From assembly GCA_018241505.1 (NCBI GenBank), contig JAFEDS010000023.1, positions 1-60,871 on the forward strand: a stretch of DNA of 60,871 bases, given 5' to 3'. The notes under the pieces are model-generated. The model did not search any database, was not told the DNA's origin, and was given only the letters and a program-made list of their open reading frames with translations. Below, piece by piece: positions 37,873 to 41,144 of the stretch. Both the position numbers and the translations under genes were made by a program. How positions within the stretch are numbered: position 1 is the stretch's first letter; every line of letters begins with the position of its first letter. The stretch is from Pseudomonadota bacterium (lineage in GTDB: Bacteria; Pseudomonadota; Gammaproteobacteria; Steroidobacterales; Steroidobacteraceae).

Positions 37873-38271
37873 TTACGCCGGGTCGCGCTTTTCTTCGAAC
37901 CGGACGACCGGTTGGCCGCTGGTAACGGTGACTTCGCCGTCAATGACGGCACCTTTGGCGATAGCGATGCTTTTGGCAATGATGTCGGCGTGGATGACGG
38001 CGGTAGCGCCCACCTCGAGTTTGTTCTCGACCACCAACTTGCCGGAAACGCGCCCGGCAATGACGGCCGCCAGTGCGTGTATCTCGCCTTCCCATTGGGA
38101 TTTTGCGGTCATGCTCAGGGCTCCGCCCACTTTGCCATCGCCGCGAATGGCGCCGCAAACAACGAGCGGTCCACCGGTTTCCACATCGCCGGTGAGATGA
38201 CACCCCTCCGCAACGAAGGTCGGCGAGCTACCGAGGTGATCAATCAGTCGTCGCTTCGGCGTATCGCTCAT
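37873..38271 (-). CDS. Bactofilin family cytoskeletal protein
   Basis: A 132-residue bactofilin. These proteins polymerise into filaments near the membrane and organise cell-wall enzymes. The repeated beta-helix rungs are visible as regularly spaced hydrophobic and Gly residues (GCHLTGDVETGGPLVVCGAI through GAVIDGEVTV). The second of two adjacent ATGs, at 38271, is favoured because GGAG is five bases upstream. The gene is divergent from a SPOR-domain lipoprotein, consistent with a cell-envelope role. Confidence 0.9.
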   Translation of the reverse strand: MSDTPKRRLIDHLGSSPTFVAEGCHLTGDVETGGPLVVCGAIRGDGKVGGALSMTAKSQWEGEIHALAAVIAGRVSGKLVVENKLEVGATAVIHADIIAKSIAIAKGAVIDGEVTVTSGQPVVRFEEKRDPA

Positions 38272-38350
38272 CATTGCTCCGGTGTCGAGGCCTGCACTTG
38301 CTGAGGGCGTCGTTACAATATCCAGTAGCTGCGAGGGGAAGGTGCTGACG

Positions 38351-39358
38351 ATGATCACAGTCCGGGCAGGAAGTAGTGCGATTGGTGTGTGTTTGCTGCT
38401 GGTGCTGGCCGGGTGCAGCCGAGAGCAGCAGGATTGGCGATCCGCGGAGACGGCCGACACCATCGAGAGCTACGGTCAGTTTATACAGCGCCATCCCGAG
38501 AGCGAGCTCGCGACGCAAGCGCGTGCGCGAGTCGCACAGCTCGGGGAGGACCGGGACTGGCAGCACGCGGGCAGCGCGGACACCGTGGACGCTTATCGGG
38601 AGTTTCTCGCGCAGCATCCAAATGGGAAGTGGGCCCAGGAGGCGCATATCCGCATCGAGAATTTCTCGCTCGGGGAGCAGGCGGGGACGGATGCGGGGAG
38701 CAAGGCAGCTTCCACGGCGGGCGGCTCAGGGGCCGCCGCCGGATCCGCCACGGTGGTGGTGCCCCGTGCATCGGGGGCCGGTGCGGCGTCGCGAGCCGGT
38801 GCGGCGTCGGCAGCCGGAGCAGCGTCAGGAGCCGGAGCAGCGTCAGGGGTAGCGAGGGCATCGGGTGCTGGGGTGGCACCTGGCGGTGGGGCAGACTCCG
38901 GCGCGCGAAGCTACGGCTTGGCTGAGCCGGGTGAGGCCGCGACGCCGGTGGGATCGGCTGGGGCGCCGGGCTCTGGAGCGGCAGGCACCGGGGCCAGTAG
39001 CCAGTCGCCAGCGTCATCGACGCGACAAGCATCCTCCGCACCCCAGGGCCCCTCGGCACCACGAGGCACTGCGTCAACCCATGCCCCGGCTGTACCCTCA
39101 GGGGCCGCCGGAGGTGCCTATGGCATCCAGCTCGGCGCCTTCACGACCGAAGCTGGCGCCTCCGCACAGTGGCGCACCCTCACCTCCAAGTACCCCACCG
39201 AGCTCCAGGGGCTGCAGCAGCATCTCGTTCCGGCCGATACAGCGTCTGGCCGCATCTACCGCCTGCAGGCGACCGTCGGCGACGAGAGTCGTGCGCGCAG
39301 CATCTGCGATCAGCTCAAGAAGCGCGGCCAAGGCTGCGTCGCCGTTTTGCCACACTGA
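38351..39358 (+). CDS. SPOR-domain lipoprotein with low-complexity Gly/Ala/Ser linker
   Basis: A 335-residue protein from ATG 38351, preceded by GGGGAAGG. It has a lipoprotein signal (LLVLAGC), and then two TPR-like repeats (ADTIESYGQFIQRHPES and ADTVDAYREFLAQHPNG). A Gly/Ala/Ser-rich linker of about 150 residues follows, and a C-terminal SPOR domain (YGIQLGAFTTEAGA, then CDQLKKRGQGC) that binds denuded septal peptidoglycan. A TACAAT hexamer at 38314-38319 could be its -10. It likely acts at the outer membrane during division. Confidence 0.88.
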   Translation: MITVRAGSSAIGVCLLLVLAGCSREQQDWRSAETADTIESYGQFIQRHPESELATQARARVAQLGEDRDWQHAGSADTVDAYREFLAQHPNGKWAQEAHIRIENFSLGEQAGTDAGSKAASTAGGSGAAAGSATVVVPRASGAGAASRAGAASAAGAASGAGAASGVARASGAGVAPGGGADSGARSYGLAEPGEAATPVGSAGAPGSGAAGTGASSQSPASSTRQASSAPQGPSAPRGTASTHAPAVPSGAAGGAYGIQLGAFTTEAGASAQWRTLTSKYPTELQGLQQHLVPADTASGRIYRLQATVGDESRARSICDQLKKRGQGCVAVLPH

Positions 39359-39393: not shown

Positions 39394-39414
39394 AGGTGAC
39401 AAATCCTGTCACCT
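39394..39414. promoter_or_regulatory. Inverted repeat upstream of the sigma-54 promoter (possible activator site)
   Basis: AGGTGAC, seven bases, then GTCACCT form a perfect 7-bp inverted repeat about 90 bp before the predicted start of the small RNA. This is a normal distance for an enhancer-binding protein site. It could instead be a remnant hairpin behind the SPOR gene; there is no T-run. Confidence 0.4.
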
Positions 39415-39469
39415 GGTACGGGTTCTCGTTTCGGGGTTAAGTGATTGTTTCTATTAGAGGTGCCAAGCC

Positions 39470-39485
39470 TGGCATACCCCTTGCT
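39470..39485 (+). promoter_or_regulatory. Sigma-54 (RpoN) promoter
   Basis: TGGCATACCCCTTGCT matches the -24/-12 consensus TGGCACG-N4-TTGCW at all core positions (TGGC and TTGC, with correct spacing). Transcription would start near 39496. Confidence 0.7.
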
Positions 39486-39495
39486 TTAACTAGAC

Positions 39496-39582
39496 CGTGT
39501 AAGGCTTGGCGAATAACTTCCCCGGTGTTCGCTAAACTGTGCGCCGCGATGCATCTTCCCCTGCCTCGCGGCGCTTTTTTTT
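39496..39582 (+). ncRNA. Predicted sigma-54-dependent small RNA (about 87 nt)
   Basis: The stretch between a strong sigma-54 promoter match and a strong intrinsic terminator has no ORF with a ribosome binding site. The RNA would contain two copies of CUUCCCC: one single-stranded at 39518-39523 onward, one in the terminator loop (39555-39561). Both are complementary to purine-rich ribosome binding sites. Sigma-54-driven small RNAs are known (GlmY/GlmZ, CrcZ, NrsZ), but this one is not recognisable as any of them. No RNA evidence is available here. Confidence 0.55.
39541..39582 (+). terminator. Intrinsic terminator of the predicted small RNA
   Basis: A perfect 9-bp stem (GCGCCGCGA with TCGCGGCGC, 39541-39549 and 39566-39574), a 16-base loop and eight Ts (39575-39582). 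It is 183 bp beyond the SPOR gene, too far for that gene alone to be the obvious client. Confidence 0.85.
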
Positions 39583-39767
39583 GCCTGTGCCTCGAACTGT
39601 GCAGGCCCATTCAGGGTCTCTTGCAGCTCCCGCCTTTCGTACCCATCCTGTTTCCCTGAACGACCCTCTGTGGCCTGGGGCCTCAGGATGCATGATGAAA
39701 GTACGAGAAGTGCGGACTTTAGTTTCAGTAACGCTTTATACGCGAAGGGACCGGTAGACTTCGGGCT
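39583..39767. other. Intergenic region before the M16 peptidase genes
   Basis: No gene is supported here. A short run of TTTATA near 39737 could be part of a promoter for the downstream peptidase genes, but no convincing -35 accompanies it. Confidence 0.3.
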
Positions 39768-41144
39768 ATGAACAAAAGCTTTGGCTCGCATTTCCTCGCC
39801 GTGGGCTCGCTGACCGCCGCCTTTGAGGCGGACGTGTCGCCTGTTCCCGGCCGTGAGCTCGTGCGCGCCACGACACTCGCCAACGGACTCAAGATCATTG
39901 TCTGGCCGGTTCACAACATACCCAGCGTCGCAATGAACAACTGGGTGCGTGCCGGCAGCCGCAATGAGGCGCCGGGTATCACGGGATTGGCGCATTTCTT
40001 CGAACATATGATGTTCAACGGCACCACCCGCCGACGGCCCGGCGAATTTGATCGCCTGATGGAGGCGCAAGGCGGTGCCAACAACGCATTCACCAGCGAC
40101 GATGTCACGGTCTACCAGGACTGGTTTCCCCGCAACGCCCTCGAGCTGGTGCTCGATCTCGAGTCCGATCGCGTCGCCAATCTGGCGTTCACGCCCGCCG
40201 TCATTGAAAGCGAGCGTGGTGTGGTCTGGTCGGAGCGCCGCCTGCGAGTCGACGACAACAACCAGGGCATGCTGAGCGAGCAGGTGCAGGCGACGGCGTT
40301 TGTCTCTCATCCCTATCGCTTTCCGACGATCGGCTGGCCGGCTGATATTCAGTCCTGGCGCATGGAGGACCTGCAGAAGTTCTTCAAGATCTACTACGCG
40401 CCCAACAACCTGACGCTGGTGTTTGCCGGCGATGTCGTGCCGGAGCGGGTATTCGAGCTGGCGCGCCGCTATTTCGAATCCATACCCCGCCAGGAGCCGC
40501 CGCAGGCAGTTCGTACCGTCGAACCCGAGCAGCTCGGTGAGCGCCACTTTGTCATTGAGCGCAAAGCGCAGACGCCGCTGGTGCAGATTGCCTACAAAGC
40601 GCCCGCCGCCGCGGACGTGCGCGGACCGGCGGTCAATCTATTGCTGTCAATCCTGGTCGATGGCGATTCATCGCGGTTGCACCGGCTGTTGGTTGAAGAG
40701 CGGCAGCTTGCTATTGAGGTCGGTGGTCATTGGCAGGAAGGCTTTGACCCGGGTCTGCTGTGGCTGTTCCTGACACTGCCGGAGGGCGCGGACCCGGCCG
40801 AAGTGCAGGCTGCGGTCGATGCCGAGCTGGCGAATATCCTCGAGGACGGCGTGACGGAAGCGGAGTTGGCGCGGGCCAAGAACATGACGGCCGCGGGATT
40901 CTGGAAGAAGTTGGCCACCATCGACGGCAAGGCGCAGCTTCTGGGTGAATACGAAGTCTTTCACGGCGACTGGCTGAAGCTGTTTGATGCCCCGGCGCAG
41001 TTTGACCGGGTCACGCGGACTGAAATCCAGGCGGTTGCCCGCGAGATTCTTGACAAGCGGCGCCGCACGGTTGGCGTGCTGATACCGGAAGAAGGCGAAG
41101 TTCGCGCCGAGCACGATGCCGAGTCCGAGGCGGACGGGGCGTGA
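39768..41144 (+). CDS. M16 family zinc peptidase (catalytic subunit)
   Basis: A 458-residue peptidase of the pitrilysin/processing-peptidase group. The inverted zinc motif HFFEH is at residues 76-80, and the third ligand Glu is E156 in the VVWSE segment, 76 residues later. The C-terminal half is the inactive-repeat-like domain. No convincing signal peptide is visible from this start. The stop overlaps the start of a second M16 gene (GTGA), so the products very likely form a heterodimer. Confidence 0.92.
   Translation: MNKSFGSHFLAVGSLTAAFEADVSPVPGRELVRATTLANGLKIIVWPVHNIPSVAMNNWVRAGSRNEAPGITGLAHFFEHMMFNGTTRRRPGEFDRLMEAQGGANNAFTSDDVTVYQDWFPRNALELVLDLESDRVANLAFTPAVIESERGVVWSERRLRVDDNNQGMLSEQVQATAFVSHPYRFPTIGWPADIQSWRMEDLQKFFKIYYAPNNLTLVFAGDVVPERVFELARRYFESIPRQEPPQAVRTVEPEQLGERHFVIERKAQTPLVQIAYKAPAAADVRGPAVNLLLSILVDGDSSRLHRLLVEERQLAIEVGGHWQEGFDPGLLWLFLTLPEGADPAEVQAAVDAELANILEDGVTEAELARAKNMTAAGFWKKLATIDGKAQLLGEYEVFHGDWLKLFDAPAQFDRVTRTEIQAVAREILDKRRRTVGVLIPEEGEVRAEHDAESEADGA

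Follow-up and report, generated by a model that had tools for sequence, protein, structure and literature searches.

A predicted small RNA gene of the Steroidobacteraceae, probably driven by PilR and sigma-54 and probably left over from a small-protein mRNA

Between a SPOR-domain lipoprotein gene and an M16 peptidase gene, the 60,871-nucleotide stretch of Steroidobacteraceae DNA analysed here (the window) contains a short region that a sequence-only reading had interpreted as a small RNA (sRNA) gene of about 87 nt, carrying two CUUCCCC motifs, transcribed from a sigma-54 promoter under nitrogen or nutrient control and acting on the translation of the SPOR gene. The locus raises the questions of whether such a gene is conserved, which activator would drive it, which mRNAs its RNA would contact and from what it arose. 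From sequence comparisons, we consider it likely that the region is a trans-acting sRNA gene of the type IV pilus (PilS-PilR, sigma-54) regulon and that it descends from the mRNA of a small protein. The features of the locus are collected in Table 1.

Table 1. Features of the predicted sRNA locus and of its neighbours, in window coordinates
Feature	Positions	Strand	Basis
Upstream activating palindrome GGTGACAAATCCTGTCACC, core TGAC-N7-GTCA at 39397-39411, probable PilR site	39395..39413	+	In 40/40 usable unique hairpin-1 loci; also upstream of pilA
IHF-like site TAAGTGATTGTT, between activator site and promoter	39438..39449	+	Strict motif in 19/43 unique loci
Sigma-54 promoter TGGCATACCCCTTGCT (-24/-12); predicted RNA start near 39496	39470..39485	+	Pattern match; kept in relatives
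Predicted small RNA of about 87 nt without a recognised ORF	39496..39582	+	Fold z -4.5; conserved family, model R1
Hairpin 1, GCGAAU/C stem, CUUCCCC 39517-39523 in or near loop	39509..39532	+	Predicted fold, alignment
Terminator hairpin 2, CUUCCCC 39555-39561 in loop, then U8	39541..39582	+	Predicted fold, sequence
Bactofilin gene, usual upstream neighbour	37873..38274	-	PF04519 E 4.5e-18
SPOR-domain lipoprotein gene	38351..39358	+	PF05036 E 2.6e-9
M16 peptidase gene, downstream; frequent, inconstant neighbour	39768..41144	+	PF00675 E 2.8e-26, PF05193 E 1.7e-32

The locus combines a -24/-12 element of the form TGGCAY-N5-TTGC with an activator site at looping distance, the two elements expected of a sigma-54 unit. 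Within TGGCATACCCCTTGCT, TGGC and TTGC are separated by seven bases, which is the canonical spacing, so that the promoter proposed earlier stands but its spacer of eight bases does not. This element is the sole match to TGGCAY-N5-TTGCW in the window, where a mean of 0.14 is expected; because 12 of 100 shuffles of the window also contain at least one, the sigma-54 motif alone is not decisive. Similarly, the core of the palindrome recurs at two other places in the window, and three or more such cores are present in 12 of 100 shuffles. The combined palindrome and sigma-54 pattern, by comparison, has a single occurrence in the whole source genome and none when reversed. In the window, the activator site lies 58 nt before the -24 element, and the inverted repeat that had been noted at activator distance proves to be general, since TGAC-N7-GTCA is located 55-64 nt before the -24 element in all 40 usable unique hairpin-1 loci, a count in which the script favoured the site with a palindrome wherever several sigma-54-like sites occurred. 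The survey started from 51 loci, from which seven without a usable site (L045 and L048, truncated close to the hairpin, and L091-L095, with a sigma-54 site and no exact palindrome) and one duplicate were removed to leave 43 unique loci; three of these (L087-L089) are without the hairpin-1 pattern, were chosen partly via the palindrome and are excluded from the 40. A strict match to the IHF consensus is present in 19 of the 43 unique loci as compared with 0.7% of shuffled spacers.

Whole-genome searches lead to the same promoter. In the window's genus, the strict pattern never occurs more than once per genome, with no control matches, and wherever the matching locus was inspected its site is the sRNA promoter; outside the genus, the pattern occurs only in G045 and G058 (among 80 genomes). 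In the order, 53 of 296 genomes contain a looser palindrome and sigma-54 pattern, with 65 sites in all (two for the reversed pattern); in the class, 16 of 370 genomes contain it, with 19 sites (three for the reversed pattern). As a separate observation, the -24/-12 element of the window lies, together with the predicted transcription start, between the arms of an inverted repeat, GCCAAGCC...GGCTTGGC (39462-39511). This repeat is not evident in the compared relatives and is possibly an extra control element or a product of chance.

Across loci, 15 to 238 nt separate the -12 element from hairpin 1. The strong terminator described previously is recovered as a stem of 39541-39549 with 39566-39574 followed by eight T at 39575-39582; a simple terminator scan misses it from its list, probably since that scan restricts loops to 3-8. 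The RNA from 39497 to 39583 folds with a predicted energy of -34.7 kcal/mol (z -4.5 against dinucleotide shuffles, with none of 200 as good) into two hairpins, each bearing CUUCCCC in or near its loop, and the gene of about 87 nt proposed earlier is retained as a prediction. The intrinsic terminator and the exposed, conserved seed characteristic of trans-acting base-pairing sRNAs are both present by prediction. Every one of 12 folded transcripts has one or more C-rich loops, carried by differing stems and not always in both hairpins; the preservation of the loops on differing stems argues that the loops matter. For the covariation search that had been recommended in relatives, the stems are too conserved within the genus to be informative, double changes occurring at 2 of 18 pairs.

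In the 7.88-Mb source genome (a MAG, 93.9% complete), the sRNA region is matched over its full length once, and blastn detects it at E <= 7e-8 in 16 of 59 other genomes, all 16 being among the 36 congeners searched. A search with the hairpin-1 pattern recovered 32 named MAG loci, of which 7 are labelled Steroidobacteraceae and the other 25 only Gammaproteobacteria, Proteobacteria or Pseudomonadota; hairpin 1, which is strongly conserved, was itself the search key. An RNA model, R1, built from an alignment of 30 sequences, matches 56 of 296 genomes of the order at E <= 0.01. All 18 strong matches in the order (E < 1e-9) are preceded on the same strand, at 13-236 nt, by an independently found palindrome and sigma-54 site, as compared with only 15 of 42 weak ones (E 1e-9 to 0.01), and the weak matches outside the genus include chance ones. 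Of the 65 palindrome and sigma-54 sites in the order, 47 have an R1 match or the coding sequence of a small protein, described below, within 450 nt downstream. Within the window's genus, 11 of 23 genomes match R1, one of them only weakly and without the promoter, and 12 have no match at E <= 0.01, so that the gene is dispensable; when promoters are counted in the same 23 genomes (the source genome included), 10 have both match and promoter and 13 have no promoter, so that the two features co-occur. Across the whole window, nothing reaches an Rfam gathering score. By these comparisons, the predicted sRNA gene is a conserved one of the Steroidobacteraceae, patchy in distribution, and its family, absent from the Rfam copy searched, is probably driven by PilR and sigma-54 and likely of unusual origin. 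In two genomes of another family (L097, L098), a coding sequence is followed by a C-rich terminator region of two hairpins, with a weak R1 match and no sigma-54 site in the 180 nt inspected, which may represent convergence.

The activator is suggested by the type IV pilus genes of the source genome, which are arranged in the order pilS, NtrC-type response regulator, pilA, pilB, pilC, pilD. The pilS product contains the PilS transmembrane domain (PF25323 6TM_PilS, E 1.3e-28), the regulator comprises receiver (PF00072), sigma-54 (PF00158) and Fis-type HTH (PF02954) domains, and the genes after pilA are identified as pilB by TIGR02538 (above cut-off), as pilC-type by PF00482 and as a prepilin peptidase gene by PF01478. 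Upstream of pilA, on contig 29, are located TGACAATCCACGTCA and the sigma-54 promoter TGGCACAGGCTTTGC. When TGACAATCCACGTCA is compared with TGACAAATCCTGTCA at the sRNA locus, the pilA site is common to both, as is the -24/-12 element; the spacing differs, the activator site of pilA being about 118 nt before the -24 element and that of the sRNA closer. Palindrome and sigma-54 site precede all seven pilA-type genes examined, in seven genomes, and no other prepilin-like gene in those seven pilA loci has both; class-wide, 7 of 19 such sites precede a prepilin gene. Control by the PEP-CTERM regulator PrsR was dropped once pilin genes turned up, and the nitrogen-type control of the sequence-only reading gave way to the link with the pilA activator site. 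The activator of the sRNA is most likely PilR, the regulator of type IV pili, rather than a nitrogen regulator; we apply the name PilR on account of the position of the gene next to pilS and pilA. The pilE promoter of commensal Neisseria (Nps/Npa) is organized in the order UAS-IHF-RpoN (PMC6528607), and UAS, IHF-like site and -24/-12 element follow the same order at the sRNA locus, although the product there, in contrast to those of the pilA and pilE promoters, is an RNA. In P. aeruginosa, PilSR is described as responding to pilin and regulating more than pilA (PMC6058289). In several pilA 5' leaders (L163-L169), a GGCGCC...GCGCC repeat follows the sigma-54 start and precedes the Shine-Dalgarno sequence, which possibly marks a structured leader.

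Relatives outside the genus shed light on the origin of the RNA, since there the same promoter precedes the coding sequence of a small protein of about 80-100 aa (alignment A2; e.g. L100, L101, L096, L131-L134, L385) ending in ...TGCFRRGKPIxDPxTxEVIGYEMEEV. The protein has no Pfam match (three members) and no NCBIfam match (ten members), and is found in 37 of 296 genomes of the order and in none of the 23 of the window's genus. The promoter lies 34-83 nt upstream in 20 of 25 strong matches and in 1 of 15 weak ones, and the small protein is a probable, unnamed member of the PilR regulon. The bactofilin gene, which is upstream of the sRNA in 25 of 33 loci (among the remainder, several end early), also adjoins the small-protein gene at L096, L131-L134, L373, L376, L377, L382 and L385 but not in the f10 loci, so that the bactofilin locus is likely the common one. 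The small-protein mRNA is predicted to end in a terminator hairpin with a CUUCCCC loop in five f10 genomes, G235 and G073, and no C-rich-loop terminator is seen within 190 nt of the coding sequence in seven f6 genomes. A long C-rich run is also present in the 3' UTR of the small-protein coding sequence of family f11 (L390, L391, L393), just before the terminator, from which a C-rich 3' end may predate the sRNA.

Within genus g20, G248 has the order bactofilin, promoter, small protein, CUCCCC-loop terminator and M16, and G061, G297 and G264 have bactofilin, a sigma-54 promoter, a C-loop terminator unit and M16 with no small-protein coding sequence at that place; the G264 locus (L094) has a sigma-54 site without the exact palindrome, and the unit of G061, which has no R1 match at E <= 0.01, was recognised from promoter and fold. 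Since G061, G244 and G297 encode the small protein elsewhere in the genome, the coding gene in g20 may have moved rather than been lost. At the bactofilin locus of G039, a split remnant (IGYE / MDEVP, in adjacent frames) was noticed by eye, as a single case. An hmmsearch for small-protein traces in the sRNA leaders gave at best 2.1 bits, as against up to 5.2 for shuffled sets, and the G039 remnant is not among its best matches. We suggest that the sRNA is probably what remains of the small-protein mRNA, the coding part having been lost and the promoter and C-rich terminator kept, with the polarity of this change taken from the presence of the small protein in other families rather than from a rooted tree. 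Read in this direction, the order would display a series from a small-protein mRNA without a C-rich end, through one with a C-rich terminator and a coding remnant, to the stand-alone C-rich sRNA. This resembles sRNAs derived from 3' UTRs, for example that of the glnA mRNA (PMC9731577), insofar as in some relatives a C-rich terminator hairpin ends a coding mRNA, whereas in the window's lineage there is no coding part and the promoter runs directly into the RNA.

Four other explanations were weighed against a PilR-controlled sRNA gene. That the sRNA is sigma-54-dependent under a different enhancer-binding protein, whether NtrC-like, GlrR-like or an orphan, with an incidental likeness to the pilA site, appears improbable: the palindrome does not match what we take to be the NtrC and GlrR consensus sequences, the class-wide sites repeatedly precede prepilins, and palindrome and sigma-54 site recur at every pilA-type gene examined, including that of the source genome with pilS and an NtrC-type regulator adjacent. 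Sigma-54 activators are numerous, nonetheless; among the best 25 NCBIfam matches, no model names the pilA-linked regulator PilR and no equivalog cut-off is reached, and the PilR sites of P. aeruginosa are described as NifA-like with GTCT elements (PMC6058289), unlike this palindrome. A role as leader or attenuator, in which termination at 39575-39582 would compete with read-through into the M16 operon, could be expected from the M16 start 186 nt downstream of the sRNA on the same strand, and M16 is downstream in 18 of 33 loci (within the available downstream sequence, some loci being too short for full counts) as well as in L087, L088, L094, L143 and L162. In only 8 of 33 loci, however, is M16 found on the same strand at no more than 500 nt from hairpin 1, a DnaJ-type gene lies that close in 5 of 33, and elsewhere promoter and hairpins persist with M16 kilobases off or outside the available sequence (the counts being incomplete); a leader role is therefore unlikely to be general, and we give it little credence. 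The domains of the window agree with the placement between SPOR and M16 genes reported earlier, and the SPOR gene is a syntenic neighbour of the sRNA locus, but this arrangement is not constant, as six loci (L040, L051, L055, L060, L061, L063) have the sRNA without any SPOR-type ORF found.

The small-protein coding sequences that follow the same promoter in related genera and families raise the alternative that the functional unit is a small ORF with its 3' UTR, the RNA elements being terminator only. So do the class B loci (L044, L046, L050, L065, L068, L069), where a conserved ORF of 60-67 aa, beginning MSTRTLTLLMPALRPSDxVRHWPVALLLA..., lies between promoter and hairpin 1, and where the terminator has no C-rich loop. 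In the window and the other loci without an ORF, by contrast, the 15-116 nt between the -12 element and hairpin 1 contain no conserved ORF that we could see, and hairpin 1 is strongly conserved (although also the search key) upstream of the terminator, which makes this alternative very unlikely. Homology of the class B ORF with the small protein was rejected after a negative profile comparison (probability 1.1). One further class B locus, L151 (G427), is in a genome assigned to a different family than the other class B genomes, for which misassignment, contamination or transfer may account. The absence of the coding sequence from the genus and the patchiness of the RNA would also suit an unexpressed, decayed remnant of the small-protein gene; this we find hardly credible, given that divergent genomes with leaders of differing length share the promoter, the spacing and the C-rich loops.

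Among characterised sRNAs, GlmZ, Qrr, CrcZ and NrsZ are sigma-54-dependent. GlmY likewise has a sigma-54 promoter (PMC6075780), and the sRNA described here is like this group in its sigma-54 promoter and distal activator site and differs from it in activator site and regulon, with no match at an Rfam gathering score. The best Rfam match is sX13 of Xanthomonas (RF02232; 25.0 bits, E 0.0036), an identity that is ruled out by the gathering cut-off of 50 bits. sX13 is reported to repress type IV pilus and other mRNAs, for which it needs C-rich loops and G-rich motifs in the targets (PMC3771888). Both RNAs, that of the window by prediction, are compact and strongly folded with C-rich apical loops. 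Two CUUCCCC hairpins are present here as opposed to three C-rich stem-loops in sX13; the neighbours are bactofilin, SPOR and M16 genes rather than polA; and the promoter here is of the sigma-54/PilR type, whereas the main text on sX13 (PMC3771888) mentions neither RpoN nor sigma54.

The candidate target proposed earlier was the SPOR gene, and GGGGAAG is indeed present in its ribosome binding site, at 38335-38341, 9 nt before the ATG at 38351, one base from the position first given (38336-38342). A SPOR-type ORF is found in 24 of 33 loci, and its lipoprotein start can be placed in 14 (window included); GGGGAA occurs within 25 nt upstream of that start in 3 and full GGGGAAG in 2 of these 14, which does not support the SPOR gene as target. 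Bare GGGG is near the start in 6 of the 14 leaders (window, L038, L047, L049, L056, L067), so that a looser contact of the sX13 kind may exist. The SPOR protein itself has a long, low-complexity Ala/Ser/Gly-rich middle (window 38651-39100) between its TPR-like and SPOR parts. Genome-wide, GGGGAAG-N4-9-ATG occurs 68, 39 and 38 times in the source genome (G000), G001 and G031, compared with 32, 24 and 18 for the reversed control, an excess that is no proof of targeting because the motif is also Shine-Dalgarno-like. Of these 145 sites, 143 were analysed (two from G031 were omitted) and 60 have an ORF of at least 60 aa; they include one orthologous pair between genomes, the gene of which is present in 2 of 50 genomes (G031 lying outside those 50). 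By eye, no GGGGAAG match resembled the start of a pilus gene. The pilus loci inspected were pilSRABCD of G000, minor pilin regions of three genomes, pilM of six and 20 pilT-family loci, and neither these, the SPOR leaders nor the genome-wide GGGGAAG sites in three genomes revealed a conserved target. Duplex scores between the loops and three pilA leaders, obtained without a control, are given no weight here.

Taken as a trans-acting sRNA gene of the PilR regulon, the locus would operate as follows. Phosphorylated PilR would bind the palindrome, the IHF-like site would probably bend the DNA between activator site and promoter, and sigma-54 RNA polymerase would start near 39496 and stop at the U-tract ending at 39582. 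The resulting RNA would display its two hairpins with CUUCCCC loops, which most likely stop the translation of target mRNAs by pairing with their G-rich ribosome-binding regions; we infer this mode of repression by loop pairing from the analogy with sX13. The RNA so produced would be the former 3' end of a PilR-driven small-protein mRNA, the coding part of which was lost in this lineage and the promoter and C-rich terminator of which were retained.

A literature search limited to titles and abstract openings, and not exhaustive, found no proteobacterial sRNA under PilSR control. If the proposed reading is true, this would be the first sRNA described in the PilSR regulon, as far as so limited a search shows. 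More tentatively, and with somewhat less than even confidence, we envisage that an mRNA became a purely regulatory RNA at one bactofilin locus under one PilR/sigma-54 promoter, so that pilus sensing would be coupled to translation of genes for the envelope or motility. PilSR, which senses pilin, is widespread, and a conserved sRNA with the promoter logic of pilA would constitute a post-transcriptional arm of pilus regulation. The locus may, in addition, allow the transition from a protein-coding unit to an sRNA gene to be traced, with promoter and 3' end kept.
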